Assembly: GCF_001580915.1 (NCBI RefSeq)
Contig: NZ_LHZQ01000192.1
Location: 1-33,644, forward strand
Length of the DNA: 33,644 nucleotides
Direction of reading: 5' to 3'
Source of the DNA: Acetobacter tropicalis
Lineage (GTDB): Bacteria; Pseudomonadota; Alphaproteobacteria; Acetobacterales; Acetobacteraceae
Below, in pieces: positions 1-24,519 of this stretch. The notes beneath the pieces are model-generated. The model did not search any database and was not told where the DNA came from. It saw only the letters and a program-made list of their open reading frames with translations. Numbering within the stretch: the stretch's first letter is position 1; each line of letters starts with the position of its first letter. A program made the translations under genes and the position numbers.

Positions 1-39
1 ACCTGAAGGCCGCAGGTTCAAATCCTGCCCCCGCAACCA
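1..39 (+). tRNA. tRNA-fMet (initiator), 3' part only
   Basis: The window opens inside a tRNA. Visible are the 3' half of the anticodon stem, the variable loop, a complete T arm (stem GCAGG/CCTGC around TTCAAAT), the 3' acceptor strand CCCCGCA, the discriminator A and an encoded CCA ending at 39. The CCCCCGCAACCA end and the AAGG variable region match bacterial initiator tRNA-Met, whose 5' acceptor base is characteristically unpaired; the 5' half lies outside the window, so the identity is recognised from the 3' half only. It is probably the integration target of the element that follows. Confidence 0.85.
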
Positions 40-1675
40 TCTGAACTTGCGATGCCAACGCATCACGAACCCCAGCCCCGAAACGGGCTGGGGTTTTCGT
101 TTGGCCGCCCGCTGCCATCATCAGGATGCCGGCGAGATCGCCCCGGACGTCAATCTGGAGGCCCTTGTCGGATGGCGTCAGGATGATCGCCTCGATCAGA
201 GAGCGGATCACCTCGGCCGCCTCCTGGCGCTTTTCGTCCAGCTCCGAATGCAGCATATCGTGCAGGCGCGCGAGTTGTCGGTGGTAGAATTCCGCCATCT
301 GAGGATGGAGCAGGGGCGGGGGTGCCTCGGCGGTTGCAAGGAAGTCTTTAAGTTCGGTCTTGCGGGCTTCGAGTTTGGATCCGCGTTCCTTGACCGTCTC
401 GATCGAGATGGCTTCAGAAAGGTAGAGATCCATCAGGCGTTGGATGTCGCGTTCCACCCGCTTTAGTTCTGATTCCGCTGCGCCGATGTCGGCCGACGCC
501 TCCATGCGCAGCCGGTTCATCTCGGTGGTGAACGCGGCGCAGAATTCGGCGAACAGGTCCGGGTCCATGAGATGGTGGCGCAGGGCGTCGAGGACGCGGC
601 GTTCCAACTCCTCGCGACGCATGTTGGTCCGGTTGTCGCAGGTGCCCTTATTGCGGGCCGTCGAGCAGCCCAGCAGTGCCCCGGAGATCATCGAATAGCC
701 GCCACCGCAGCAGCCACATTTGCTCAGGCCGGAGAACAGGTAGCGGGGACGGCGTTTCTCGCGGAAATGGTCGGGCGATGATGTGTCGCTTGTGTTCCGG
801 CTGGCGCTGACGCTGGCCTGCCGCGCCTTGACCGCGTCCCACAACTCCTGATCGACGATCCGCAGCTCCGGCACCTCCTGGATGACCCACTCGGAGTTCG
901 GATTGGGACGCGCCTGGCGCTTGCCGGTGTCGGGATCCTTGATGAAACGCTGGCGGTTCCAGACCAGCTTCCCCACGTACATCTCGTTGTTGAGGATACC
1001 GGTGCCGCGCGCCCGGTTGCCGTTGATCGTCGAGAAGCCCCAGGCACCGCTGCCAGGGGCAGGGATGCCTTCGTCATTGAGGCGGAAGGCGATGGCGCGC
1101 GGTCCCAGCCCAGCCGCGAAGTCGCGGAAGATTCGACGGACCACATCCGCCTCGTGCGGGTTGATGGTCCGGTCGCCCCGGATCGGCTCGCCATTGGTGT
1201 CGAGCTTACGCACGACATCATAACCATAGGCGTTGCCGCCGCCGGACTTGCCTAGTTCCACGCGCCCCCGCAGGCCGCGATGCGTCTTCTCGGCCAGGTC
1301 TTTCAGGAACAGGGCGTTCATCGTGCCCTTGAGGCCGACATGCAGATGAGACACCTCTCCCTCGGAAAGGGTGACGATCCGCACGCCGGCATAGTTCATG
1401 CGCTTGAAGACGCCGGCGATGTCCTCCTGGTCTCGGGACAAACGGTCCATCGCCTCGGCCAGCACGATCTGGAACCGTCCGCGCTGTGCATCCGCGATCA
1501 GCGCCTGGATGCCGGGCCGCATCAGGGATGCGCCCGAGATGGCGTGGTCGGTATATTCCTCTACGACGGTCCAGCCCTGTTTTTCCACGTGGGTACGGCA
1601 AACGCGAAGCTGGTCGGCGATCGAGGCGTCGCGCTGGTTGTCGGAGGAATAGCGGGCGTAGAGCGCGACCTTCAT
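1..1675 (-). CDS. Large serine recombinase (integrase), 3' end beyond window
   Basis: Site-specific recombinase expected to catalyse integration and excision of the element. The 558 codons visible have no stop. Residues 1-150 are the resolvase catalytic domain (start MKVALYARYSSDNQRD; likely nucleophile Ser10, with Arg8 next to it); about 160-265 are the 'recombinase' domain; a zinc-ribbon with a CGCC cluster at 320-323 and later cysteines follows, then a charged coiled-coil (about 375-470). The last visible residues, MVAGAGFEPAAFR, are the antisense translation of the tRNA 3' end, so the frame crosses the tRNA terminator and the tRNA. The ATG at 1675 lies 13 bp after the stop of a small gene on the same strand. 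The true C-terminus lies left of the window. Family assignment is secure; the integration site is inferred from position. Confidence 0.93.
   Translation of the reverse strand, partial: MKVALYARYSSDNQRDASIADQLRVCRTHVEKQGWTVVEEYTDHAISGASLMRPGIQALIADAQRGRFQIVLAEAMDRLSRDQEDIAGVFKRMNYAGVRIVTLSEGEVSHLHVGLKGTMNALFLKDLAEKTHRGLRGRVELGKSGGGNAYGYDVVRKLDTNGEPIRGDRTINPHEADVVRRIFRDFAAGLGPRAIAFRLNDEGIPAPGSGAWGFSTINGNRARGTGILNNEMYVGKLVWNRQRFIKDPDTGKRQARPNPNSEWVIQEVPELRIVDQELWDAVKARQASVSASRNTSDTSSPDHFREKRRPRYLFSGLSKCGCCGGGYSMISGALLGCSTARNKGTCDNRTNMRREELERRVLDALRHHLMDPDLFAEFCAAFTTEMNRLRMEASADIGAAESELKRVERDIQRLMDLYLSEAISIETVKERGSKLEARKTELKDFLATAEAPPPLLHPQMAEFYHRQLARLHDMLHSELDEKRQEAAEVIRSLIEAIILTPSDKGLQIDVRGDLAGILMMAAGGQTKTPARFGAGVRDALASQVQMVAGAGFEPAAFR
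70..97 (+). terminator. Rho-independent terminator of tRNA-fMet
   Basis: A 9-bp stem CCCCAGCCC (70-78) / GGGCTGGGG (85-93) with a six-base loop is followed by TTTT and CGTTT. It stands 30 bp after the tRNA CCA end on the same strand. The same bases code, on the other strand, for the C-terminal region of the serine recombinase, so the terminator is probably carried by the element and restores termination of the tRNA after integration. Confidence 0.8.
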
Positions 1676-1688
1676 GACGAGGCATCCC

Positions 1689-1877
1689 TTACGGTCCGGA
1701 GCGGCGGCGCTGCTCCTGTTGCTGCGACCGGAACCAGTCCCGTGCCGCACGGCGTGCCATGAGGCGGACGAGCGCCACAAGACGTGGGTCGGGGGCATTG
1801 GGCCGCAGGACGAGCCGTAATTCGGGCTCGGGCAGCCGATACGCCGGGGCACTGGACTGGCTGCGTCTGTTCGTCAT
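1689..1877 (-). CDS. Small basic protein upstream of recombinase
   Basis: Predicted 62-aa product starting MTNRRSQSSAPAYRLPEPEL and rich in arginine (about 12 residues), ending RSQQQEQRRRSGP. No domain is recognised. I chose the ATG at 1877; an ATG 14 codons upstream at 1919 would add a less plausible leader. Its stop is 13 bp before the recombinase ATG, so the two genes probably form one transcript. A small arginine-rich protein beside a recombinase could be a DNA-binding accessory or directionality factor, but nothing in the sequence proves this. Confidence 0.55.
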   Translation of the reverse strand: MTNRRSQSSAPAYRLPEPELRLVLRPNAPDPRLVALVRLMARRAARDWFRSQQQEQRRRSGP

Positions 1878-4528: not shown

Positions 4529-5779
4529 ATGCTGGAAGTCGACAAAAAACGCGAAGCAACAGCTTCAATTAGGGGCTATTTCTACCAGCTCGATGCAGCG
4601 TTACTCGAAATCCTGAACGCGGGCCTAGACGAGAGCGTTGTCATCGAGGGCATTGAAGATTTCGACCGCTATACCGATGAAGGCGTCATTTACGGCCAGG
4701 TAAAATACTACGCGGAGCAGAACCTGACAGACTCGGTACTGCGTGATCCCCTGCATAAGCTCTTTGTTCACTTCCATGGGCTCGAAGAAGCACAACGGGC
4801 AGGCCGAAAATACCTGCTGTACGGGCACTTTTCAGAAGTTAAGATCGATATTGGTGAGCTTTCCGTCGATCGCTTCAAATCGGTGATGGAATACCGAAAG
4901 GAAGTGAAGGCCGCTGACGGTACAAAATCCTACGAAAAGAAATCTTTGCTCGACGGCATAGCCGCGCCAGATGGGCTAATTGAGGCGTTCTGCAAGAGCT
5001 TCAGCATACAAATCTCGACGGAATTCTCTGAACATCGCAATCTCGTCATCGAGGCAATAAGGAAAAACCAAAACGTCTCCGGGTTTGAGGCCGAAGGTTT
5101 TCACTATCCAATGGTCTTCGACTACATCGCCACACTCGCCACGAAAAAAGATCACAACGACCGCAAGGTCACCCGTCGTGATCTGCAGGAACTGCTCAAA
5201 GGTACTCAAGCTATCCATAATCGTTGGCTTCTCCGGGAGAAGGATGCAAGCGAGTACGCGAAGCATATGAAACGCCTGTACTTCTCGCCCACGAACGGCG
5301 CAGGAATCGTCCGTGCTTTCATCATTGAATGCAGTGCAGCAACCGACGGTTCGGTTGTCTGTGACCAACTCAGAGCAATCGGCAACAACTGGAGTTCGGC
5401 GAAGAAGCGCCGCATCCAGAATTCCGAGCGCTACGCGCCATTCATTCTGTTACGCGGCGCGGATGAAAAACTAATCATGCATGTGAAGAACATTCTTTTC
5501 GATTCCGGAACGGGTTTCGTGGACGGTTTCCCATATCGCGGATCGCCATTCCGCATTGATCACGTTCGTAGCCAGCAGACCCAAGAGCACCAGATCGAAA
5601 TTCGTTTTGTTGACGACGTTGACCAGTTGCTGGAGGTCCTCGATGGGGTGGGGCGGAAGTTATGCCATATATACGACTTCTTCCTTGAACGCCCTGCAAC
5701 CATGGCGCTGCCGGGTCCAAAGAGTCGGATGTATTCGATCCCTATCAGTAGCATCTCCACAATCACGAAAATTATCTGA
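4529..5779 (+). CDS. DUF4297-type nuclease of a HerA-linked defence system
   Basis: A 416-aa protein whose N-terminus carries the DUF4297 pattern, the nuclease fold also used by Cap4 effectors: an aromatic helix IRGYFYQLDAALLEIL (14-29), VVIEGIEDFD (37-46) with acidic residues E40, E43, D44 and D46, and QVKYY (57-61) with K59, together resembling a PD-(D/E)xK core. The C-terminal two thirds are not recognised. The partner HerA gene starts 9 bp downstream. In described HerA-DUF4297 systems the nuclease assembles on a HerA hexamer and degrades DNA during phage infection; that function is transferred here from the family. Base composition is lower in GC than the ICE backbone, in keeping with recent acquisition. 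The family call is from motif pattern and context, not a profile search. Confidence 0.75.
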   Translation: MLEVDKKREATASIRGYFYQLDAALLEILNAGLDESVVIEGIEDFDRYTDEGVIYGQVKYYAEQNLTDSVLRDPLHKLFVHFHGLEEAQRAGRKYLLYGHFSEVKIDIGELSVDRFKSVMEYRKEVKAADGTKSYEKKSLLDGIAAPDGLIEAFCKSFSIQISTEFSEHRNLVIEAIRKNQNVSGFEAEGFHYPMVFDYIATLATKKDHNDRKVTRRDLQELLKGTQAIHNRWLLREKDASEYAKHMKRLYFSPTNGAGIVRAFIIECSAATDGSVVCDQLRAIGNNWSSAKKRRIQNSERYAPFILLRGADEKLIMHVKNILFDSGTGFVDGFPYRGSPFRIDHVRSQQTQEHQIEIRFVDDVDQLLEVLDGVGRKLCHIYDFFLERPATMALPGPKSRMYSIPISSISTITKII

Positions 5780-5788
5780 GGACGAACA

Positions 5789-7528
5789 ATGACTGAGGAA
5801 ATCGCCAATGCTGAGGTTGTCGCCGTTTACCCCAACAAAGTCCGAGTGGCCGTCGATGATCTTTTGAACTTCCAGGCGGCTGGAGAGTCTCTTCGTGTTG
5901 GGTCCTTTCTCAAGGTGTCCGACAACGACAACGTTTCTCTTATCTGCATCATCGAAAGCTTTTCAATCGAGATGAAAGAGGTGAAAGGCGACGGCAGCAG
6001 TGACTACAAGCGCGTCTATATGATTGATGCGTATCCTCTCGGGACCCTTAAAGACGGAAAGTTCAATCGCGGCGGTGACGAACTCGCCATTCCGCCAAAG
6101 AAGGTCGTCCCGGCGACGAAAGCGGAAATCGCAGCCATCTATGCAGACTGCTATGCGGCTGAAGACCGCTTTTGCTTTTCGTCATTGACCAGACAACGTG
6201 ATATCGTTGTACCTGTTCATGGCGACAGGTTTTTCAATAAACATATTGCTGTTGTCGGTGCTTCAGGATCAGGAAAATCGTCGAGTGTGTCGTCTGTTCT
6301 GCAAAGGGCCATATCATCCAAAACCGGCGAATACCAGGGCCTCAACAACTCCCATATCCTGATATTTGATCTTCATTCCGAATATGCCGCAGCGTTTCCG
6401 AAAGCAAATGTCATCACCGTCGATGATCTCGTCCTGCCATATTGGTTGCTAAACGAAGACGAGATGGAGGACATGTTTCTGGAGTCAGGGGACAACAATA
6501 ATTACAATCAGGAGGCATTGCTGCGGCAGATTGTTACCATCGCAAAAAAGATCAGTAATCCTGATGTAGAGAAGGTCAATTTTGACAGCCCACTTCCATA
6601 CGAGATCAATCATGTCGTGAATGCGTTCAGAAATCTCACCAGAGAGACAAAGAACGCTGACAATTCTTTGCTGATCAAGTTCAAGGACAACATGGAAATC
6701 GATTTCCCTGACGTCGATGCCCAGATCGAACACTATTGTATGGAATTGCGCGAATTTGCGCCGACAGAACGTAGTAAGATTAATAAAGGGCCGTATGCCG
6801 ACGGGACAATCGACAAGTTCGAACGACGGGTCAGATCAAAAATCGCGAACACGCGCCTAGGGTTTATTTTCGGTGAAAAGGCTAAGAAGGCGTCTTTGGA
6901 GGATGTGCTTAGACAGTTCACTGGCTACAACGCCGGAGGTGAGTCGAATGTCACCATCATCGACCTTAGCGGCATCCCTTTTGAACTGCTCAGCATCACC
7001 GTTTCGCTTATCTCCCGTCTAATGTTCGATTTTTGCTACTATGCCCGGCGCGTTGAAACCAAAACCGAACAGCCATTCCTGATGGTCTATGAGGAAGCGC
7101 ACAAATATGCGCCGAAGAGCGGTCTTGCCCGCTATAAGGCTTCACTGGCTGCTATCGAACGCATAGCCAAAGAAGGCCGAAAATACGGCATCAGCCTACT
7201 GATTTCGAGCCAGCGACCGTCTGAAATTTCAGAAACTATTTTTTCGCAATGCTCCAACTTCTTGGCGATGCGTCTTACTAATCCCGATGATCAAAGTTAT
7301 GTCCGCCGACTACTGCCGGATACGCTTGGCAATTTGACCGAGGGAATGCCCGCGCTTGAGCAAGGGGAGGCGCTTCTGATCGGGGACGCCGTCATCATGC
7401 CGTGTGTCGTGTATGTGGAGAAATGCGACCCCGAACCCTCGTCCTGTGACGTGAAATATCTCACGCTCTGGAAAGCGGAGTGGAAGAATATCGACTTCAA
7501 AAAGCGTGCCGATAACTGGCGAGGGTGA
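5789..7528 (+). CDS. HerA-family ATPase (defence partner of DUF4297 nuclease)
   Basis: A 579-aa FtsK/HerA-type hexameric ATPase. Residues 1-105 resemble the HAS-barrel found at the N-terminus of HerA; Walker A is GASGSGKSS at 157-165; the HerA-type Walker B region LIFDLHSEY is at 191-199 (D194, E198); a second acidic motif lies in MVYEEAHKYAP, and SSQRPSEIS is the C-terminal sensor-like segment. Cellular archaeal HerA works with NurA in end resection; bacterial HerA next to DUF4297, SIR2 or similar effectors belongs to anti-phage modules, which is the likely role here. It follows the nuclease gene by 9 bp with GAGGAC overlapping that gene's stop as the ribosome binding site, so expression is probably coupled. 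Lower GC than the flanks. Confidence 0.88.
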   Translation: MTEEIANAEVVAVYPNKVRVAVDDLLNFQAAGESLRVGSFLKVSDNDNVSLICIIESFSIEMKEVKGDGSSDYKRVYMIDAYPLGTLKDGKFNRGGDELAIPPKKVVPATKAEIAAIYADCYAAEDRFCFSSLTRQRDIVVPVHGDRFFNKHIAVVGASGSGKSSSVSSVLQRAISSKTGEYQGLNNSHILIFDLHSEYAAAFPKANVITVDDLVLPYWLLNEDEMEDMFLESGDNNNYNQEALLRQIVTIAKKISNPDVEKVNFDSPLPYEINHVVNAFRNLTRETKNADNSLLIKFKDNMEIDFPDVDAQIEHYCMELREFAPTERSKINKGPYADGTIDKFERRVRSKIANTRLGFIFGEKAKKASLEDVLRQFTGYNAGGESNVTIIDLSGIPFELLSITVSLISRLMFDFCYYARRVETKTEQPFLMVYEEAHKYAPKSGLARYKASLAAIERIAKEGRKYGISLLISSQRPSEISETIFSQCSNFLAMRLTNPDDQSYVRRLLPDTLGNLTEGMPALEQGEALLIGDAVIMPCVVYVEKCDPEPSSCDVKYLTLWKAEWKNIDFKKRADNWRG

Positions 7529-7944: not shown

Positions 7945-8030
7945 TATTGATTCATGTTCTTATAATATATTAATAAATATTTATTTTATGATACTTTAAA
8001 ATATTGAGTTTTAATAAATAAAAACCACCA
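7945..8030. other. AT-rich patch with repeats
   Basis: Roughly 85 bp made almost only of A and T in a GC-rich element. It includes a 14-bp perfect palindrome AATAAATATTTATT (7972-7985) and the decamer TTAATAAATA twice (7970-7979 and 8011-8020). It may be an easily melted site, a target of a nucleoid protein such as the HU encoded nearby, or a left-over edge of the cargo insertion. No open frame is supported. Confidence 0.45.
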
Positions 8031-8153: not shown

Positions 8154-8305
8154 ATCCCCCCCATTGCCGTCGTTTCCTGCCGGGAAAAGGCCGCGGATTT
8201 TGGGTGCGTCTGGGGCCTTCAGAGTCAGAGGGCTGCGCGGATTTTCGTGACGGGTTGAGAGGGTAGGGGAGAGTCTCCTGTCCGCCCGTCATGGAGTGTT
8301 TCGCC

Positions 8306-10387
8306 ATGGCGACCGCTATTCCCAAAATCAGCCTGAGTTCGTCCCGTGACATCCCGTTCAACCGGCTCGTGCTGTCCCAGTTCAACGTGCGGCGTGTGAA
8401 ATCCGGCCTGTCGATTGAGGAACTGGCCCGCGACATCGAGCGTCGCGGGCTGCTGCAGAGCCTGAACGTCCGTCCTGTCCTTGATGATACCGGGACCGAG
8501 ACCGGTACCTATGAAGTGCCCGCCGGTGGGCGTCGTTTCCGTGCCCTCGAACTGCTGGTGAAGCAGAAAAAACTGGCGAAGACGGCCCCGGTGCCGTGCG
8601 TGGTCCGCGAGGCCGGATCGGCCATTCTCGCCGAGGATGACTCCCTGGCCGAGAACGTCCAGCGTCTGGCCCTGCATCCGCTGGACCAGTTCCGCGCCTT
8701 CCGTGACATGCTGGAGAAGGGCATGTCCGAGGAGGAAATCGCCGCAGCGTTCTTTGTGGCACCGACCGTGGTCAAACAGCGGTTGCGGCTGATGACCGTG
8801 TCCGACAAACTGCTCGATATCTACGAGCAGGATGGCATGAAGCTGGAACAGCTGATGGCTTTTTCCATCAGCGATGACCATGCCCGTCAGGAACAGGTCT
8901 GGGACATCGTGTCCCAGAGCCATAACCGCGAACCCTATGTCATCCGCCGCATGCTGACGGAGAAAACCGTGCGGGCCTCGGACCGTCGCGTGCGCTTCGT
9001 CGGACTGGACGCTTATCTTGCGGCCGGTGGTCCTATCATGCGCGACCTGTTCGAAGTCGATGATGGTGGCTGGCTGCAAGATCCAGCCGTTCTGGACCGG
9101 CTGGTTATGGAAAAGCTGCACGCAGCCGCAGAAGATATCCGTGCAGAGGGCTGGAAATGGGTCGAGGCGGCCCTGTCGTTCCCATGGGGACATACCCGGC
9201 AGTTCGCGGAAATCGACGGCACGGAAGTGCCCCTGACCGAGGACGAAACTGCTCGCCTCGAAGCCCTGCGCGCCGAGCAGGAAACCATCGAGGCTGAATA
9301 CGCCCAGGCCGATGAATATCCGGATGAGGTCGATGCACGGCTGGGCGAGATTGAGAGTGCCATTCTTGCTCTGGAGGAACGACCTCTGGCGTTCGATCCC
9401 GCCGACATGGCGCGAGCCGGGGCTTTTATCAGTCTCGACAGTGATGGCACACTGCAGGTGGAGCGGGGTTTTGTCCTGCCCGAGGATATGCCGGCTGAGC
9501 CGGAAGAGATCGATAACGCCGATAATTCAGATGAATACGAGCACTCCGCGTATGATGGGCGGGATGAACGTATTGCTGATGATGGCGGCGATGCGGGCGG
9601 GGAGGGCAACACCATCTCTCCCGATGTCGACCCCGAGGAAGAAGACGGGATCAAACCGCTGCCTGACCGGCTGCTCACCGAACTGACGGCCTGGCGCACG
9701 CTGGCCCTGCGGGACGCCTTTGCCAGCAACCCGCACATCGCCCTGACGGAACTGCTACACACGCTGGTGCGCGATGTTTACTGGCAGACACCCGGCGCGG
9801 ATTGCCTGGAAGCCTATGTCCGGGAAATCCCGTTGCCGGTCCATTCGCCCGACATGCCGGGCAGTGTGCCAGCTCACGCGCTGCGCCAGCGCAACGAGGG
9901 CTGGAAGCATGATCTGCCGGAAGACGAAGACGCGCTGTGGCGCTGGATCGACGGGCTGGACGACACCAGCCGCATGGCATTGCTGGCGCACTGCCTGTCC
10001 TTCGGGATCAACGCGCTCTATGAGCGCATGCCCTCGTATGGGGCGGTGTCCCAGCGCAGCGTCATCGAGCGGCTTAAGCGTGCAGACCGTCTGGCCACAG
10101 CCCTCAGTCTCGATCTGGGCGAGGCGGGCTGGCAGCCCACGGTCGAGAACTATCTCGGCCGGGTGACCAAGGCGCGTATACTGCAGGCTGTGCGTGAAGC
10201 ACGCGGTGACGAGGTGGCTGGCCGCATCGCCCATCTGAAGAAGCCTGACATGGCGCGCGAGGCCGAGCGGCTGCTCGATGGTTCGGGGTGGTTGCCCGAG
10301 GTATTGCGGACCGTAGGGCTGGCCGATCAGGCACAGGTTGAAACAGTGAGGTCAGGCGGGGATATGGAGGCCATCGCTGCCGAATAG
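8306..10387 (+). CDS. Large ParB-family DNA-binding protein
   Basis: A 693-aa protein with an N-terminal ParB/Srx domain: NVRR at 27-30, GGRRFRA at 74-80 (equivalent of the CTP-binding GERRxRA) and AENVQRLALHPLDQF at 115-129, followed by a helix-turn-helix (about 141-165). The rest, more than 500 residues, is element-specific, with a very acidic stretch at about 395-450. Classical ParB proteins are 280-350 aa, so this is about twice normal length. It is expected to bind DNA in the cytoplasm for partition or gene control. No ParA gene is in the window. I chose ATG 8306 because GGAG at 8293-8296 lies 9 bp upstream; the ATG at 8291 has no SD. A strong terminator follows 28 bp after the stop. Confidence 0.88.
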   Translation: MATAIPKISLSSSRDIPFNRLVLSQFNVRRVKSGLSIEELARDIERRGLLQSLNVRPVLDDTGTETGTYEVPAGGRRFRALELLVKQKKLAKTAPVPCVVREAGSAILAEDDSLAENVQRLALHPLDQFRAFRDMLEKGMSEEEIAAAFFVAPTVVKQRLRLMTVSDKLLDIYEQDGMKLEQLMAFSISDDHARQEQVWDIVSQSHNREPYVIRRMLTEKTVRASDRRVRFVGLDAYLAAGGPIMRDLFEVDDGGWLQDPAVLDRLVMEKLHAAAEDIRAEGWKWVEAALSFPWGHTRQFAEIDGTEVPLTEDETARLEALRAEQETIEAEYAQADEYPDEVDARLGEIESAILALEERPLAFDPADMARAGAFISLDSDGTLQVERGFVLPEDMPAEPEEIDNADNSDEYEHSAYDGRDERIADDGGDAGGEGNTISPDVDPEEEDGIKPLPDRLLTELTAWRTLALRDAFASNPHIALTELLHTLVRDVYWQTPGADCLEAYVREIPLPVHSPDMPGSVPAHALRQRNEGWKHDLPEDEDALWRWIDGLDDTSRMALLAHCLSFGINALYERMPSYGAVSQRSVIERLKRADRLATALSLDLGEAGWQPTVENYLGRVTKARILQAVREARGDEVAGRIAHLKKPDMAREAERLLDGSGWLPEVLRTVGLADQAQVETVRSGGDMEAIAAE

Positions 10388-11805: not shown

Positions 11806-12081
11806 TCAGTCGTTCAGGCTGTCCTTGAGCGCCTTGGCAGGCGTGAAGGCCAGCTTGCGCGAGGCTGCGATCTGGATGGTCGCACCCGTGGCCGGGTTGC
11901 GGCCTTCGCGGGCGGCGACTTCCCTGACCTTGAACTTGCCGAAGTTCGGCAGGGTGATTTCATCACCGGCCTTGGCGGCAGTGGTCATCGCCTCGACCAA
12001 GGCGTCCAGCACCTTGCGGGTATCGGTTTTGCTCGTGTCGGTGGTGGTGGCGATATGATCGACCAGATCGGCAATCTTCAT
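11806..12081 (-). CDS. HU-family DNA-binding protein
   Basis: A 91-aa histone-like protein of standard HU length. It begins MKIADLVDHIATTTDTSK, has the dimerisation helices, the LPNFGKFKVREVAAREGRNP segment (about residues 44-63) and the NPATGATIQI beta-arm (with the conserved Pro that kinks DNA), and ends in a basic helix (FTPAKALKDSLND). HU bends and compacts DNA and assists replication initiation and recombination. The start at 12081 is supported by AAAGGA 7-8 bases upstream; an in-frame ATG six codons earlier is less well placed. It is transcribed against its neighbours, divergently from the Toprim gene. Confidence 0.95.
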   Translation of the reverse strand: MKIADLVDHIATTTDTSKTDTRKVLDALVEAMTTAAKAGDEITLPNFGKFKVREVAAREGRNPATGATIQIAASRKLAFTPAKALKDSLND

Positions 12082-12170
12082 GAAACTATCCTTTTGCATT
12101 CGGGCCTGTGCCCGTTGTCTCTGCCGTTACGGGGGAATCATGGCGGCATCAAGCCTGCAGGGAGGGTGAG

Positions 12171-13250
12171 ATGACCAATGCGCAGTCATGGGATGCTGGC
12201 GATCTGGCCCGCAGGCTGGCTGAAAATGCCGAGGCGGTGTGTCGCCATTACCTTTCAGCCGGGCGACGGCACGGCAATTACTGGCTGGTCGGGGATGTTC
12301 ATAACACCCCGGGGCGGTCGCTCTATGTCCGCCTGCATGGTGGTCTGGACGGGCGTGATCGCGCGGGTAAATGGACGGATGGCGCGACGGGGCAGCATGG
12401 CGATCTGCTCGACATCATCCGAGAAAGCCTCGGGCTGCTGGATTTTCGCGCTGTCGCCGACGAGGCCCGGCGCTTTCTCTGCCTGCCGCAGTCCGAGCCA
12501 CGATCGGCCCCTGATCGCGGCCGTTCCCATGCGTTCAGCCACGATACTTCGGGGCAGGCATCTGGCACCTCAGACGCCGCACGTCGGCTCTGGGCCATGT
12601 CACGCCCGATCGCCGGCACGCTGGCGGAAACCTGGCTGCGGCATCGTGACCTGACCCGCCTGGCGGACCTGTCATCCCTGTGTTTCCACCCCGACTGCTA
12701 CTATCGCGCCGACACTGACAGTCCGACCGAGACATGGCCCGCGCTGATTTCCGCCGTGACCGACCTGGATGGCCGTGTTGCCGGCATCCATCGCACCTGG
12801 CTGGCGCGCAACGGAAAGGGCAAGGCGCCAGTCGAAATGCCGCGTCGGGCCATGGGCGACCTGCTTGGCAATGCCGTGCGCTTTGGCGCGGTGTCCGACG
12901 TTCTGGCGGCGGGCGAGGGGATCGAGACGGTGCTCTCGCTCCATGAGATCATGCCCGCTCTGCCACTGGCCGCCTGCCTGTCCTCGGCGCATCTCGCCGC
13001 CATGGCGTTTCCGCCTACGCTGCGCCGCCTCTATGTGCTGCGCGATGACGATCCGGCCGGGGATCATGCGGTAGCGACCCTGCAGGCCCGCACGCAGGAG
13101 GCCGGGATCGAGTGCCTCGTGCTGTCACCGCGTCTGGCGGATTTCAACGATGATCTCCGCTATCTCGGGCGTGGCGCGATGCGGGCGATCCTGCATTCCC
13201 AGCTTGCCCCGCAGGACGTGGCGCGGTTCCTGCATCCGGTCATGCACTGA
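12171..13250 (+). CDS. Toprim/DUF7146 primase-like protein
   Basis: A 359-aa plasmid-type primase or Toprim protein. The N-terminal half (about 1-110) carries a zinc-finger-less primase-like region (GKWTDGATGQHGDLLDIIR, 67-85) and the C-terminal half the Toprim fold: AGEGIET at 247-253 (catalytic Glu249) and LRDDDPAGD at 290-298 (metal-binding Asp292-Asp294). Toprim proteins use these acids to bind Mg2+ in primases and nicking enzymes. In conjugative elements such enzymes can prime the incoming strand; that is inferred. ATG 12171 has GGAGGG five bases upstream (12161-12166). It is divergent from HU. Confidence 0.87.
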   Translation: MTNAQSWDAGDLARRLAENAEAVCRHYLSAGRRHGNYWLVGDVHNTPGRSLYVRLHGGLDGRDRAGKWTDGATGQHGDLLDIIRESLGLLDFRAVADEARRFLCLPQSEPRSAPDRGRSHAFSHDTSGQASGTSDAARRLWAMSRPIAGTLAETWLRHRDLTRLADLSSLCFHPDCYYRADTDSPTETWPALISAVTDLDGRVAGIHRTWLARNGKGKAPVEMPRRAMGDLLGNAVRFGAVSDVLAAGEGIETVLSLHEIMPALPLAACLSSAHLAAMAFPPTLRRLYVLRDDDPAGDHAVATLQARTQEAGIECLVLSPRLADFNDDLRYLGRGAMRAILHSQLAPQDVARFLHPVMH

Positions 13251-16777: not shown

Positions 16778-17357
16778 ACTCCCCGCCTGGCTTGCCCCCG
16801 CTCTCTGGGATCCTGATGTTGCGCCGGAGGTCGTCGTGCGTGGCGACGGGGGTGACATTCTGCTTCGGCTGGCACGCTATGTCCGGGTACGACACGACGG
16901 TCCCGATGGCATCCACCTCGTGCTGGAAGGCGATTCTGGCCCGCTGCGCATCGTCGTTGTTGTCGATCGGCAACCCGACGCGCCGGGAACCTGGTTTATC
17001 GTCGACGACGGGCATCTCACGACCCGTTTGGCCAGTGTTGCGCGCTTCGGCCGCCTGCTTTCCGGTCGTTCGCCGGGTTCAATTCCACCCAGCCTGCGCC
17101 TGAGTCCCCAGCAGAAACTCCGCCAGATCCGCATGCTCTGCATCGCGGAAGGCCGGCGCATGGGCATGGCGGTCCGACGGATCGCGGCGGGCATCTACGG
17201 CGAGCGCATCCTGTATCTGTCCCGCAATGAATGGCGTGCCAGCTCATGGCACCGGGCTTTCTATCGCGATCTCGAGGGTGCCGGGTTCTACCTGAATGGC
17301 GGTCACATCGCCCTCCTTCAGGGGCTGAAGCAGGGGGGTGACAGTCTGGTGGCCTGA
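16713..17357 (+). CDS. DUF2285 domain protein (overlaps previous frame)
   Basis: A frame of 214 codons from a TTG at 16713, overlapping the DUF6499 frame by 65 bp. The recognisable protein begins at FPVDPELPAWLAPALWDPDVAPEVV (about residue 17 on), and the C-terminal DUF2285 domain runs from LSPQQKLRQIRMLCIAEG (about 130) through RRIAAGIYGERI to GGHIALLQG. DUF2285 proteins are small regulators or DNA-binding proteins of ICEs, near transfer genes. No good start with an SD exists in this frame: the TTG is poor and a GTG at 16836 would cut conserved sequence. This supports expression as a fusion with the preceding frame. Confidence 0.7.
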   Translation: MTPRHGAPSPVAGGCVFPVDPELPAWLAPALWDPDVAPEVVVRGDGGDILLRLARYVRVRHDGPDGIHLVLEGDSGPLRIVVVVDRQPDAPGTWFIVDDGHLTTRLASVARFGRLLSGRSPGSIPPSLRLSPQQKLRQIRMLCIAEGRRMGMAVRRIAAGIYGERILYLSRNEWRASSWHRAFYRDLEGAGFYLNGGHIALLQGLKQGGDSLVA

Positions 17358-17453
17358 ACTTTGTCATCCCTCCCCAAGCCCCATTCTCCGGCAGCGTCCC
17401 CTCATGGGCCGCAGCATCCCGCCACTGGCCCGCTCCACCGGGAGGAACACCCC

Positions 17454-17750
17454 ATGCGTGTCCAGCCGACACTGCCACCGCGCTATCTGCGTACCCCGGA
17501 CGCGGCCAATTTCGTTGGCCTGTCCATCCGCACCCTCGAAAAACACCGGAGTTGCGGCACTGGTCCGCTCTACCGCCAGCTCGGCGGCCGGATCGTCTAC
17601 GCCGTGGAAGATCTCTGCGCGTGGGCCGATCTGAACGTCCGGCTCTCCACCGGGGACGGCGGCGGCATCCCGATGCCGTCCGATCCCCGCGCCTATATCA
17701 TCCGCCTGCAGGCCAGGGCTCGCAAGGCGCAGCGGAGTGCCGGACAATGA
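17454..17750 (+). CDS. Helix-turn-helix (excisionase/MerR-like) protein
   Basis: A 98-aa DNA-binding protein with a winged helix-turn-helix of the HTH_17/AlpA type: RYLRTPDAANFVGLSIRTLE (about 11-30), then GPLYRQLGGRIVYAVEDLCAWAD (about 37-59) as the wing and final helix. ATG 17454 has GGAGGAAC 8 bases upstream. Its TGA overlaps the repA ATG (ATGA at 17747-17750), so it is coupled to the replication initiator and probably controls it or the operon. AlpA-like proteins also act as excisionases; that alternative remains open. Confidence 0.85.
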   Translation: MRVQPTLPPRYLRTPDAANFVGLSIRTLEKHRSCGTGPLYRQLGGRIVYAVEDLCAWADLNVRLSTGDGGGIPMPSDPRAYIIRLQARARKAQRSAGQ

Positions 17751-18820
17751 TGCTGGCAGCTGACAACTGGCGTCAGCCCGACCGCCGGTTTGTGGTCACG
17801 GGGGCGGCACGGCCCCGCGACATCCGCGATCTGATGGGTCGCCCGTTCTTCTCGCTAGGGCACATGGCGCGCCTTGAGCCACTTCGCTACCGTTCGCGTC
17901 AGATGGAGATCGTTGTCGAAGCCTCGGCTCCTCTGGGCATGGCGACCATCCGGGACGCCGATGTCCTGCTCTGGCTGACCGGCCAGATCGTCGATGCCCT
18001 CAACCACGATTTGTGGGTGTCGCGCCATGTGCGCTTCACGCCTTGGCGGCTGTTCCAGGATCTGGGATGGGCTGACGGCACTCACCAGTATCGCCGGCTT
18101 CATGGCGCCCTTGCGCGTCTGGCGGAAACGCGCGTTACCACCAGCCTGCGGCAGGGGCCGGAGTGGCGCGAGAAGCCGTTCGCCTGGATCAGTGACGTCC
18201 GGATTTCCCGTGAGGACGGGGTGGCCCTGACCCTGCCGGACTGGCTCATGGAGATGGCCTGTGATCGCTCCCATGTCCTGAGCGTCGATCCCGCTTATTT
18301 CCGCCTTTATGGCGGTCTGGAGCGATGGCTTTACCGTCTGGCGCGCCGACATGCCGGTCGGCAGAAAGACGGGTGGCGTTTCGATCTTCGTGATCTCCAT
18401 GCGCGGTCAGGCACCCTCTCTCCCTGGCGGAATTTCGTGATCGACGTCGTCGGCATTGCCCGTCGTCAGGTCGTCCCAGGTTACGACTGCAAGGTCGTTT
18501 ATGGCGGAAAACAGCCAGTTCTGCGTATCTCCCCAACGGTATCATCCACCGGTTCTGTGGATAATCATGTGAATCCTACCGTTGGTCAGGATACGGAACA
18601 TACCATTGCTGACGGTGCGGAAATACCGTTGCTGAGGGTGCAGAAAACGTCGCAATCCATTGTTTTCAAAAGCGGAATCGGATCCGTAACTTATATAACT
18701 AATATAATAACTTATTATGTAGGGGATTCCGGTCTTTTGGTTCCCCTCCCGACAGCCCGGTCGGGGTATGGAAAAAAGGCTCGGGAAGCGGTCGCGGATC
18801 GCATGGTCGGTGTCCTATGA
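17747..18820 (+). CDS. repA: Replication initiator protein A (RepA)
   Basis: A 357-aa initiator of the RPA family (replication protein A of alphaproteobacterial plasmids). Diagnostic segments: IRDLMGRPFFSLGHMARLEPLRY (about 25-47), ATIRDADVLLWLTGQIVDALN (about 65-85), RFTPWRLFQDLGWADGTHQYRRLHGALARL (about 97-126) and YRLARRHAGRQKDGWRFDLRDLHARSG (about 198-224). It binds origin repeats and melts or loads replication proteins. ATG 17747 overlaps the HTH stop and its own stop overlaps the DUF2840 start (ATGA both times). The final 80 codons are lower in GC and contain a DnaA box, three direct repeats and an AT-rich stretch, so the gene seems to contain its own origin. Confidence 0.9.
   Translation: MMLAADNWRQPDRRFVVTGAARPRDIRDLMGRPFFSLGHMARLEPLRYRSRQMEIVVEASAPLGMATIRDADVLLWLTGQIVDALNHDLWVSRHVRFTPWRLFQDLGWADGTHQYRRLHGALARLAETRVTTSLRQGPEWREKPFAWISDVRISREDGVALTLPDWLMEMACDRSHVLSVDPAYFRLYGGLERWLYRLARRHAGRQKDGWRFDLRDLHARSGTLSPWRNFVIDVVGIARRQVVPGYDCKVVYGGKQPVLRISPTVSSTGSVDNHVNPTVGQDTEHTIADGAEIPLLRVQKTSQSIVFKSGIGSVTYITNIITYYVGDSGLLVPLPTARSGYGKKAREAVADRMVGVL
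18556..18722. other. Candidate origin of replication (oriV) inside repA
   Basis: In order: a consensus DnaA box TGTGGATAA at 18556-18564 (TTATCCACA on the minus strand); three 22-bp direct repeats starting at 18577, 18601 and 18624 (spacing 24 and 23 bp, close to two helix turns; repeats 2 and 3 agree at 19 of 22 bases, repeats 1 and 3 at 17 of 22; shared core TACCGTTG/TACCATTG); and an AT-rich stretch (about 18650-18722) with TAACTTAT at 18687-18694 and 18708-18715 and TAACTAAT at 18696-18703. Box, iterons and melting region form the standard iteron-origin layout. Repeats in the sequence are seen; function is inferred. Confidence 0.65.
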
Positions 18821-19305
18821 CCGCCCGCTCTTTCCGGCCGGACGACGCTGTCCTCACCACGGTCGAACTGACCTGGATCGAGAAGCGCATCGAGCACTGG
18901 ATCCGCTTCGGCCACCCCGTCGAGGATCGCATTCTCGATCGTCGGCGCAGGCTGATGAGTTTCACGCCGGACAGCGTGTTCGCGTTCATCCGCTGGGCCG
19001 CGAACGATTTCGGCACCGTGGTGTCCTGCATCGATATCGTGCGCGCCGTCGGGGTTCAGGAAGCCTGCCAGACGGTGCCGTTCGTGCGCCCCGGTGGTGA
19101 GAGTCTGCTGCGCCAGAGCGGCTGGCCGAAGGTAAGGCGCGTGCTGGAGGCGATCGACGGCGTGGAGGCGCTGGGGATCGATCCTGCCGGCGTCTGTCCC
19201 GATCACTGGCGCCACCTGCATCACCGGCTCACGGCGGCGCAGGAGCCACGTCCCTACACGTCAGAGCGCCATGAGGCATGGCTGCGCAGGAGGGCTATGT
19301 CATGA
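18817..19305 (+). CDS. DUF2840 protein
   Basis: A 162-aa protein of the DUF2840 family, found next to TraF-type peptidases in these conjugative elements. Recognisable are TTVELTWIEKRIEHWIRFG (about 14-32), FTPDSVFAFIRWAANDFGTVVSCIDIVRAV (about 49-78) and the C-terminal GIDPAGVCPDHWRHLHHRL (about 119-137). Function is unknown. It overlaps repA and the peptidase gene by ATGA, so it is part of one translationally coupled chain. Confidence 0.88.
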   Translation: MTARSFRPDDAVLTTVELTWIEKRIEHWIRFGHPVEDRILDRRRRLMSFTPDSVFAFIRWAANDFGTVVSCIDIVRAVGVQEACQTVPFVRPGGESLLRQSGWPKVRRVLEAIDGVEALGIDPAGVCPDHWRHLHHRLTAAQEPRPYTSERHEAWLRRRAMS

Positions 19306-19928
19306 CCCGGCGCGCCTGGTTCTTCGCCACGTATTTCGCCGTGCTCGGCGTGGGTGCCTCGCTGGCGTTTCATCCCACGCCGCGCTGGGTCTGGAACGAG
19401 ACGGCGAGTGTCCCGGTCGGGCTGTATCGCATCCAGCCCACCGTCTCGATCCGTGTTGGCGACATTGTCGCCATCCGTCTGCCGGAGCGCGAGGCAATGC
19501 TGCTGGCGACGCGCGGCTATCTGCCTTTCGGTGTGCCGCTGCTCAAGCCGGTGGCGGCACTCGCAGGGCAGAACGTCTGCCGTAATGGCGTGCATGTCAC
19601 CGTCGACGGAAAGGCCGTCGGTGATGCGAAGACTGTCGATCATCGGGGCCGAAAACTGCCGGTCTGGCAGGGCTGCCAACGTCTTGAACCGGGGCAGGTT
19701 TTCGTCATGAACGCCGCTGTGCCGACCAGTCTGGATGGGCGGTATTTCGGTGTCCTACCGATGGAAACAGTGATCGGTCGCGCGGTGCCGATGCATGTCC
19801 GCACGGGCGAGGCGGAGCCGCCGCCGCATTTCGATCCCCTCCCGGAACCGGATGATCCCGCGCGGAAGGGACTGCTTCTGGCTCCGCCCATGCTGCCCGC
19901 GAAAGAGAGCGAACCGCCCATCCAATGA
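19302..19928 (+). CDS. traF: S26-family signal peptidase (TraF-like)
   Basis: A 208-aa membrane serine protease of the S26 family, TraF/conjugal type. An N-terminal membrane segment (about 6-24) is followed by the catalytic serine in SVPVGLYRI (Ser36) and the general base lysine in PLLKPVAALAG (Lys82), with a beta-rich domain ending in GRYFGVLP / VIGRAVP. In RP4, TraF cleaves and cyclises the TrbC pilin; TrbC is encoded at 28595, so it is the likely substrate. ATG 19302 has AGGAGG 8 bases upstream and overlaps the DUF2840 stop; the ATG at 19278 lies inside that gene without SD. Confidence 0.9.
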   Translation: MTRRAWFFATYFAVLGVGASLAFHPTPRWVWNETASVPVGLYRIQPTVSIRVGDIVAIRLPEREAMLLATRGYLPFGVPLLKPVAALAGQNVCRNGVHVTVDGKAVGDAKTVDHRGRKLPVWQGCQRLEPGQVFVMNAAVPTSLDGRYFGVLPMETVIGRAVPMHVRTGEAEPPPHFDPLPEPDDPARKGLLLAPPMLPAKESEPPIQ

Positions 19929-22944: not shown

Positions 22945-22974
22945 GCAAATCGGATGACTGATCTTCAGATTTGC
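22945..22974. repeat. Inverted repeat between convergent relaxase and Abi_C genes
   Basis: GCAAATC (22945-22951) and GATTTGC (22968-22974) form a perfect 7-bp inverted repeat in the tail-to-tail junction, overlapping the end of the Abi_C frame. No T-run follows on either strand. It may slow both transcripts, or be coincidental. Confidence 0.35.
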
Positions 22975-23861
22975 TCAGCATGTTGGGGCAGGGCACGATG
23001 TTCCTGGCGTTCCCAGGTTTCGATCAGGAACAGTGCCAACGAACTCGCCGCATTGATGGCAAGCCGAGCAATCCGCGCGTCAATGCGCCGGAAACCTTTT
23101 TCGCGACCATGCGCATCTCCACCGTGCGTTCGTAATGCGCCAATGCCTTTGGCAACGGAAGTGAGACCACTGAGCGTCTGACGGATGTCCGCTTCTATTT
23201 CCGATGGAAAATCTGTACGCCCTGGAGACAGGCCAAGGGGTATCTGCACAGCGCGGATCAGCCCATCGATATCCTTTTTAGGCGGCAGTGGCAGGGCAAG
23301 TTCCACGAGGATCGAACGGCATACTGCCTCAATCAGGGAACAGGCCGCTGTCACCGCATCTTCTGGATCGCTTTCCAGATTTGGGAGAGCCCGTGCGATT
23401 TCCATCTGAACCGTGTCGAAATCCAGCGTGGCCACTTTCATGATAAATGGTTCGACAATTCCACCGGCTCCCTGACGCTCTGTCAGAACAGCCTTCCCGC
23501 CGACGATAACGACGGCCAGCTGGTCGGCTCCAAGAGCCTTGTTGAGATGCTCGCGTACAGCGGTCGCTCTGTCAGGGTGCTCCAGATAGGTGCGGGGGTC
23601 ACAGACCTGTTCGATAATCCGGGTGAGATAGACCTCAGCATTACCATCAGGGTGGTTAGCGACCTTGCGGATGAAGTCAGTTGTGGCCGGGACGCGCGAA
23701 CTCGCGCCGATACGCATATCGAGGCCACAGTTGAGAAAGAACTGCTCGATTTTGGGGCCTGAGCGATAGATACCAATTGGTGGTGTATTATCGTTTCCAG
23801 CACCACCCGTGATCGTATCGACCAAAGCTTTGATAACAAACGGAGAGAACTTGCCGGTCAT
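22965..23861 (-). CDS. Abortive-infection protein with Abi_C domain
   Basis: A 298-aa protein with a C-terminal Abi_C domain (about 155-285): paired helices around ESDPEDAVTAACSLIEAVCRSIL, a spacer, then GIGALRTHGGDAHGREKG (240-256), the family's RxxxGxxHG signature, and a final hydrophobic helix. The N-terminal part (about 30-150) is unrecognised. Abi_C proteins belong to phage-exclusion systems; their fold resembles HEPN helices. The ATG at 23861 overlaps the stop of the upstream Abi_2-like frame (ATGA), so the two are coupled. A start 24 codons further upstream would lie fully inside that gene. It is encoded against all transfer genes, in a cargo site between relaxase and traG. Confidence 0.78.
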   Translation of the reverse strand: MTGKFSPFVIKALVDTITGGAGNDNTPPIGIYRSGPKIEQFFLNCGLDMRIGASSRVPATTDFIRKVANHPDGNAEVYLTRIIEQVCDPRTYLEHPDRATAVREHLNKALGADQLAVVIVGGKAVLTERQGAGGIVEPFIMKVATLDFDTVQMEIARALPNLESDPEDAVTAACSLIEAVCRSILVELALPLPPKKDIDGLIRAVQIPLGLSPGRTDFPSEIEADIRQTLSGLTSVAKGIGALRTHGGDAHGREKGFRRIDARIARLAINAASSLALFLIETWERQEHRALPQHAEQI

Positions 23862-24519
23862 GGCTTCATCGTGAGCAGGGTGAGAACGGTCTGCTTTCGA
23901 TCCATCCAGGCGGCGGCCACCTGACTGCGCCATGCGATCATGTCATGGATCCGTTGATAATCATCGGCGATATTCCGAGTGAAGATTGGTTCGTGATGCG
24001 CGATCCGGTTCCTCAGACGTCGAATGATCTGGAGGTCCGCGTAGGCTGCTGCCCGCAATTGCGAGATCGTTGGTCCTGATGGTGCTCCGGGAAATAGGTA
24101 CGCAAATGCGTGTTCCAGATGCGGCTGTCCTGACCGGCAGTGAAAATATTCTCCCAGAATGCAAACTTTAATTCAGCTATGATCTTGCCGGTTGTGGGCA
24201 GCGTCGAGGCGCGAGACTGAAGATCGATCGCCGGGTTATATCGCGCCCGACCTTTCGGGCGAGGCAGGCTTCGGATGAAGCCATTGTTCCATGGCCAGTT
24301 GGCACCATGGACGTGCTCAATCGCTTCAGCGATGCCATTGCGGACAGCAACCTCGCAGACCTGAAGCGGGATGATCAGCGCCGATGAAACGTCGAGATTC
24401 CACTCATAAAGTGCGAGAGCCTTTTCCCGGTCGTTGCCCATGGCTTGCAGGTATGTTGCAAAGCGTGGTGCGGAAATGACGACGGGCAGATCCTGTATCT
24501 CGGCCGGGGAGAAAGGCAA
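23858..24519 (-). pseudogene. Abi_2-like (AbiD/AbiF) HEPN gene, frameshifted
   Basis: Two frames together make one Abi-family protein. The first, from TTG 24519, reads to RTYFP with typical blocks RFATYLQAMGNDREKALALYEWN and LQVCEVAVRNGIAEA; the second resumes as GAPSGPTISQLRAAAYADLQ and contains RNRIAHHEP, the RNxxxH motif of HEPN ribonucleases (about 23993-24013), ending TMKP at 23858. They join at ATTTCCCGGAG near 24090, where one base seems to be missing. No better start is seen; AGGA lies 8 bases before the TTG. If the shift is real the HEPN part is not made in frame; a sequencing error or slippage in the CCC run would restore it. The stop overlaps the Abi_C start. Confidence 0.75.

Follow-up and report, generated by a model that had tools for sequence, protein, structure and literature searches.

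The DNA analysed here is a 33,644-bp stretch of the Acetobacter tropicalis genome (contig NZ_LHZQ01000192.1, hereafter the window), which carries an integrative and conjugative element (ICE) with its own initiator gene, repA. With a probability of about 86 per cent, we read the 3′ part of repA as the vegetative replication origin (oriV) of this element, and the last ~90 residues of RepA are most likely the translation of that origin and of the stretch behind it. Sequence comparisons point to an iteron origin belonging to one branch of the RPA initiators, apparently swallowed by the initiator gene in part of the branch and exchanged along with that gene. An earlier note on this DNA had located a consensus DnaA box, three 22-bp repeats spaced by 23-24 bp and an AT block with three octamers inside repA, and all of them lie where it placed them:

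17747..18820, plus strand: repA, encoding an initiator of 357 amino acids; PF10134 RPA domain at residues 24-247, predicted folded part at residues 20-267
17852..18655, plus strand: cassette exchanged between types A and B (defined below), comprising most of the repA domain, the DnaA box and the iterons; from the identity profile and trees
18534..18541, minus strand: inverted partial repeat TACCGTTG (inverted repeat I1), left of the DnaA boxes; exact minus-strand match
18542..18550, plus strand: degenerate left partner of the DnaA box, TCATCCACC, two mismatches to TTATCCACA; intact in some distant relatives
18556..18564, minus strand: consensus DnaA box, TGTGGATAA on the plus strand, TTATCCACA on the minus strand
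18577..18598, plus strand: iteron 1, 22 bp
18601..18622, plus strand: iteron 2, 24 bp after iteron 1, in the same reading frame
18624..18645, plus strand: iteron 3, 23 bp after iteron 2, in a different reading frame
18686..18721, plus strand: AT-rich block, predicted strand-opening element, holding three TAACT(T/A)AT octamers
18687-18694, 18696-18703 and 18708-18715, plus strand: the three octamers
18722..18820, plus strand: last 32 repA codons plus the stop, grouped with the shared backbone and not with the exchanged cassette

Behind the domain, within the 3′ part of the repA frame, the DnaA boxes are followed by the three 22-bp repeats and these by the AT block. The iterons are imperfect (52 of 66 pairwise matches); their repeat score of 52 compares with at most 43 in 552 other 180-bp windows, and none of 1000 synonymous-codon resamplings reached it (maximum 40), while TGTGGATAA appeared in 38 of the 1000. 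A degenerate 22-mer allowing up to three mismatches found exactly the three iteron sites and nothing in 100 shuffles; it was derived from the iterons themselves, and its search therefore gauges rarity only. Over both strands of the window together, TTATNCACA occurs only once, at the DnaA box. The 38-mer at 18681 has a GC content of 0.184, the second lowest among the separate 38-mers listed, the lowest (0.053) being at 7960. The spacing of 23 bp is not divisible by three and thus puts iteron 3 in another frame, which argues for a function at the level of DNA.

Conservation was followed in 23 repA genes of acetic-acid bacteria, each exactly 1074 bp long, whose types are set by the first 770 nt: A (seven genes, the window included, with more than 85 per cent nucleotide identity to it), B (nine), C (five) and D (two). 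Rows dropped before counting were L001 (the window), L002 and L003 (distant), L019 (partial), L021 (frame broken) and eight duplicates; L029, L037 and L041-L045 lie outside the set. Both these genes and the 89 loci surveyed below contain close relatives, so the counts are not of independent events. RepA of types B-D is 61-70 per cent identical to that of the window. The best repeat triplet has spacings 24/23 and lies at the same place in all 23 genes, even where RepA is down to about 67 per cent identity and the letters of the repeats differ; its scores range from 46 to 57, and 92 control slices from these genes reach no more than 39. Amino acids in bins of codons 253-312 are 35-64 per cent identical between types, and the nucleotide alignment thus bears out the expectation that repeat phasing is kept where the protein is not. 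At equal positions the iterons of types A and B have an identity of 0.50, against 0.73-0.81 among iterons within one element. The earlier note had named as counter-evidence relatives that keep the protein and lose the repeats and the DnaA box. The outcome is the opposite. An exact box is present in 17 of the 23 genes (A 7/7, B 8/9, C 0/5, D 2/2), and in three of type C a site with a single mismatch stands 12 bp further along. The note's appeal to helical phasing is loose, 23-24 bp being about 2.2-2.3 turns at 10.5 bp per turn.

Some further observations concern the same genes. CCAACG at the inverted partial repeat (18534-18541) is kept in all 23 aligned genes. Another repA type (L041, L081 and L082) keeps the repeats, and in L041 the first half of the AT block is kept and followed by a different tail. 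Genome G215, of the same family as that of the window, has a repA equal to that of Gluconacetobacter diazotrophicus NC_011365.

The origin module extends beyond this element and is family-wide. We surveyed 89 RPA loci from acetic-acid bacteria, from other bacteria in the same class and from elsewhere in the phylum, calling a module where the triplet exceeded the best of 40 single-letter shuffles of the locus and the AT block passed a TAAC criterion. The module was called in 64, within coding sequence in 50 and untranslated behind repA in 14, with a triplet spacing of 24/23 and a single locus at 23/24. Two of the coding cases are weak (L042, 31 versus 30; L029, with a repeat lost), which leaves 62 firm overall, and L037, a fifteenth locus of the outside kind, has a gene with a premature stop. 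In the Rhodopseudomonas plasmids pBAL398.1 and pBAL398.2, the stop of repA falls at the DnaA-box region or shortly after it, leaving the repeats and the AT block untranslated before parA; the same layout is found in seven genomes of other classes (L101-L104, L106, L108 and L110) and in the Delftia acidovorans and Pseudomonas sp. BYT-5 records. As the module is untranslated in the 14 loci and in these two records, it is not there for the sake of the protein. The embedded version is present on the circular, 16.6-kb pGDIPal5II of Gluconacetobacter diazotrophicus, which has no other initiator among its listed genes and repeats the gene order of the window (helix-turn-helix gene, repA, DUF2840, S26 peptidase, DUF736, transglycosylase, relaxase) with parA in addition. 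In L049 and L052 neither DnaA box has a mismatch and the two point towards each other, TTATCCACA...TGTGGATAA, and this is what the protein motif LSTGPVD spells. A tree built from 48 RepA domains needs three changes to separate the embedded state (30, with L063 judged by eye) from the outside state (14), a count that is neutral as to direction; all trees used here are quick trees with Shimodaira-Hasegawa-like approximate likelihood ratio (SH-aLRT) support only.

Fifteen of the 89 loci are without a module call. In L063 the repeats and the AT block are visible by eye and the TAAC criterion failed; in L065 repeats can be seen by eye after the stop; in L078 the neighbour of repA is an IS5-family transposase gene. 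Five loci scored as outside lack a triplet (L064 and L116, which are one place, L068, L058 and L115), and the remaining uncalled loci, mostly of other RPA branches, showed no such module in the stretches inspected.

The protein fits such an origin. RepA matches PF10134 with 199.3 bits (cut-off 27), and the match is confined to residues 24-247. A PDB sequence search with a RepA profile found no relative, and a comparison of folds was therefore required: the modelled residues 20-267 have the fold of RctB, RepE and Pi, which would place RepA among the winged-helix Rep initiators. The model is confident across most of residues 20-267 and poor beyond about 270, the tail is predicted to be disordered, and the modelled fold stops at the point where the origin begins. 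The reading of an origin within its initiator gene is thus supported by a spacing kept in 23 of 23 genes despite protein divergence, by untranslated copies and by a modelled iteron-initiator fold. RepA matches 1123 PLSDB records at E 1e-5, each at less than 60 per cent identity; its phage relatives amount to eight records, all below 33 per cent.

Selection seems to change its object along the gene. In type A, synonymous diversity (pS) falls from 0.160 in the domain to 0.044 in the origin part, and the ratio of non-synonymous to synonymous diversity (pN/pS) rises from 0.10 to 1.11; the corresponding ratios are 0.19 and 1.22 in type B, 0.15 and 1.32 in C, and 0.22 and 1.52 in D. The rise of pN/pS with the fall of pS indicates that constraint shifts from protein to DNA. 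In the last 31 codons, past the AT block, pS is 0.137 in type A and 0.265 in type C, close to the domain values (0.160 and 0.308), so that the low pS is local there; in type B the values are 0.166 and 0.311. Among codons for the same amino acid in 185 between-type pairs, the identical fraction is 0.35-0.71 in bins of codons 1-252, and at codons 313-324, which are the AT block, 1940 of 1945 comparisons (not independent) are identical.

All 22 relatives in the 1074-bp set nevertheless keep the tail frame open, as do all four copies outside it, two of which are broken further upstream; in those four the other two frames hold 6-7 and 2-3 stops. Random placement of an equal number of changes leaves the tail open with a mean probability of 0.215 per sequence, a figure that ignores phylogeny and applies to 22 sequences selected by full length. 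The repA stop of the window overlaps the next start (ATGA), and the contexts in 54 embedded loci are ATGA (48), GTGA (3), TAATGA (2) and TTGA (1). This overlap with a possible start of the next gene suggests translational coupling, and the open tail frame was probably kept because of it.

Identity profiles and trees show that RepA and its repeats travel between types as one cassette, recombined at the conserved AT block, which forms its right edge. Type B compared with the window per 100 bp is mostly 84-97 per cent identical at 17500-17799, 53-86 per cent at 17800-18699 and 79-96 per cent at 18700-19299, whereas type C is divergent from 17000 and rejoins near 18680. In 15 of 17 rows the bin 18700-18719 is fully identical (L018, 80 per cent; L020, 95). 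Beyond the cassette stretch, L007, L017 and L009 fall to 29-51 per cent from 19300 on. The four type labels require four changes on the tree of the cassette (17852-18655), where three is the minimum possible. On 18722-19281 they require 12, against a shuffled mean of 11.8 (as low in 141 of 200 shuffles), and on 17457-17846 nine, against 11.7 (8 of 200). An AT pattern written from the window matched at 16 sites, spread over 14 of the 397 genomes of the family, and nowhere when reversed; each site is 939 nt away from a repA start, or 915 in the copy with the missing repeat.

We envisage a replicating stage of the element. It would be excised as a circular form, RepA, with its tandem winged-helix fold like those of RepE and RctB, would bind the three iterons, and host DnaA would bind the adjoining box; their joint action would open the AT block, allowing helicase to load and the circle to replicate in the theta mode. 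Ribosomes would have to traverse this predicted origin in order to translate the downstream gene.

Alternatives to an active origin deserve attention. That the origin was active in a plasmid ancestor and is now silent in the ICE is improbable. A position beside tRNA-Met with a recombinase, and the want of a plasmid form of types A-D in PLSDB, would suit such a relic, but each of types A, B and C has lowered synonymous diversity, and the cassette takes its own repeats along when it moves. It is quite improbable that the AT block is the promoter of the DUF2840-traF transfer genes, conserved for transcription. The block is nearly invariant and lies about 100-130 bp before the DUF2840 start; against this, a search of sigma-70 type only found no such promoter in 17200-19400, a similar block recurs where parA is the next gene, and the block is the junction of the RepA-iteron cassette. 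We hold it very improbable that the repeats are a RepA operator or an incompatibility or partition site, with replication beginning elsewhere or by the relaxase at the transfer origin (oriT). The repeats number just three, a ParB-like gene is present on the element (8291-10387), and transient relaxase-driven replication of ICEs is reported (PMC4489591); yet a fixed succession of DnaA box, repeats and AT block is what iteron origins usually have, and small plasmids with such initiators carry the same set. That the DNA pattern is a by-product of a repetitive RepA tail with a function of its own is scarcely credible, despite the open frame of the tail, given the frame of iteron 3, a pN/pS of about 1 or above with low pS, the predicted disorder of the tail and the untranslated copies in 14 loci and two named records.

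Several results weigh against an active iteron origin in repA. The iterons of types A and C have an identity of 0.79, no larger a divergence than that within an element. The DnaA box is inexact in six of the 23 genes, including all five of type C. The type A copy L029 (G362:C1) is shorter by exactly 24 bp, an in-frame loss of one repeat unit. The embedded loci L043, L044, L045 and L055 have no 24/23 triplet above shuffles. Among seven genomes examined with two full repA copies, five have different types and two the same type, so that a signal of incompatibility was not seen (no null was computed). The GC skew of four small plasmids has no consistent minimum at repA. PLSDB contains no plasmid form of types A-D, own-genome records of the window being possibly excluded, and a search of it with the 186-bp origin DNA, for types that it does not contain, gave no match.

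Two side observations concern genomes with several copies. The genome of L029 also has a truncated repA of each of the types A and B (L085 and L086; G362:C1), and in Komagataeibacter saccharivorans a type B and a type C repA (L010 and L014) lie ~39 kb apart on one 50.6-kb contig.

A more far-reaching proposal is possible, though we regard it as doubtful: that repA is a one-gene swappable replicon, with the origin as its untethered tail, so that initiator and matching iterons would always move as a unit and ICEs would switch replicon specificity by recombination at the invariant melting block they share; and that, with ribosomes having to traverse the origin on their way to the overlapping start of the transfer gene DUF2840, expression of the transfer genes and occupancy of the origin by RepA and DnaA are mutually exclusive, giving a built-in switch between copying and transfer.

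The window shares with other RepA-ParA elements of this backbone, and probably with Tn4371-family ICEs, an RPA RepA, DUF2840, an S26 peptidase, a DUF3363-type relaxase, TraG and Trb genes. The integrase intTn4371 is of the tyrosine type. The window differs from RepA-ParA elements of this backbone in having a serine recombinase and in that parA does not directly follow repA. Judged by gene order, the Delftia, Pseudomonas and seven other-class elements are probably Tn4371-like; in elements of the Delftia and Pseudomonas kind repA stops before the iterons, whereas in the window the frame continues through them. Iterons within the coding sequence of an initiator are also found in phage lambda O.

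On the published excerpts cited here, repA of Tn4371-like ICEs may be involved in replication, with neither oriV nor iterons mentioned (PMC2789088), and Mesorhizobium ICEs combine a Rep_3-superfamily initiator with DUF2840 (PMC8627217). The repABC plasmid p42d of Rhizobium etli likewise has an alphaproteobacterial origin in its initiator gene, AT-rich and sensitive to silent changes, but RepC is another initiator, and neither iterons nor DnaA boxes were found in it (PMC3155836); with an RPA initiator and iterons, the window does not belong to that class. Origins inside rep genes are further reported for pAMbeta1, pLS32, pSK1 and pSK41 (PMC3155836). These, like lambda O, resemble the window in having iterons in the initiator coding sequence and differ in initiators and hosts, the origin of the window lying in a tail free of protein constraint. 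Plasmids pPDL2 and pUT1 of Sphingobium, with an RPA/Rep_3 RepA, have iterons, AT-rich sequence, a DnaA box and an integrase on the element, and a mini-replicon of repA and oriV replicated, but their oriV is reported upstream of repA (PMC3516476). SGI1 is an integrated element with its own rep and an adjoining iteron oriV; it differs in a RepA_C-domain initiator, an oriV that is downstream and intergenic, and replication triggered by a helper IncC plasmid (PMC7433901). Replicon parts of Pseudomonas plasmids (the exchangeable modules REx-C and REx-R) are swapped by recombination as well, but there a control module is exchanged without initiator specificity (PMC5304414), whereas in the elements considered here initiator and repeats go together. 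Our searches, which covered open-licence PMC papers, found neither a description of the 24/23 module or its embedding nor a printed origin for this RPA branch. Origins inside initiator genes, RPA mini-replicons and integrated elements with an iteron oriV are thus already known; the embedding and exchange in the RPA branch appear to be new.

RPA-type initiators are widespread in proteobacterial plasmids and ICEs. A single signature, three repeats 24 and 23 bp apart with a DnaA-box region on one side and an AT block on the other, would reveal where the origin lies both in RepA-ParA elements with this backbone and in their alphaproteobacterial relatives, and plasmid-like replication of such ICEs becomes testable with a mini-replicon of ~1 kb. 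The loci also offer a natural series in which one origin is left untranslated in some members and taken into its initiator gene in others, as well as natural swaps of initiator and iterons with breakpoints at the melting block.

The remaining features concern the context of repA in the element, the right end of which lies outside the window:

1..39, plus strand: 3′ end of tRNA-Met(CAT), probable attachment site
2..1852, minus strand: large serine recombinase at the left end of the element, with Resolvase, Recombinase and Zn_ribbon_recom domains
17454..17750, plus strand: small helix-turn-helix gene before repA (HTH_17, 21.6 bits, below the cut-off of 27)
18817..19305, plus strand: DUF2840 gene, its start overlapping the repA stop (Pfam PF11000, E 6e-76)

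A recombinase at a tRNA had also been claimed. The serine recombinase is confirmed, but the window holds only the 39-nt 3′ end of the tRNA gene, and ARAGORN did not detect a tRNA there. The same 39 nt are part of a complete tRNA-Met(CAT) at the end of contig C177, from the same assembly; the left end of the element therefore very probably lies in that gene, and the two contigs would be joined there. The helix-turn-helix gene is annotated at the matching place in pGDIPal5II and in the Delftia and Pseudomonas records. DUF2840, and not parA, directly follows repA. The element also has a TraF-like peptidase, TraG, TrbE/TrbB-like genes and an RlxS-like relaxase (591.6 bits, cut-off 850).

Far from repA, a long ParB-like protein is encoded at 8291-10387 on the plus strand (PF02195; PRTRC ParB-like below cut-off), and the Delftia and Pseudomonas records have a ParB-family gene of like length several kb before repA. 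An HU/IHF-like DNA-binding gene (11806-12099, minus strand; PF00216, E 1e-29) could help to bend the origin, and a primase-like protein with DUF7146 and Toprim_3 domains is encoded at 12108-13250 (plus strand). A two-gene insert at 4529-7528 (plus strand), with AT-rich stretches within and behind it, encodes a 416-amino-acid protein without a Pfam match and then a HerA/DUF87 ATPase, and may be a defence pair. Between the relaxase and TraG genes, a gene at 22965-23933 (minus strand) has an abortive-infection C-terminal domain (PF14355). In the Delftia element, the variable part (L138, 1-5947) is annotated with a Qat anti-phage system and an AbiEii-type gene.
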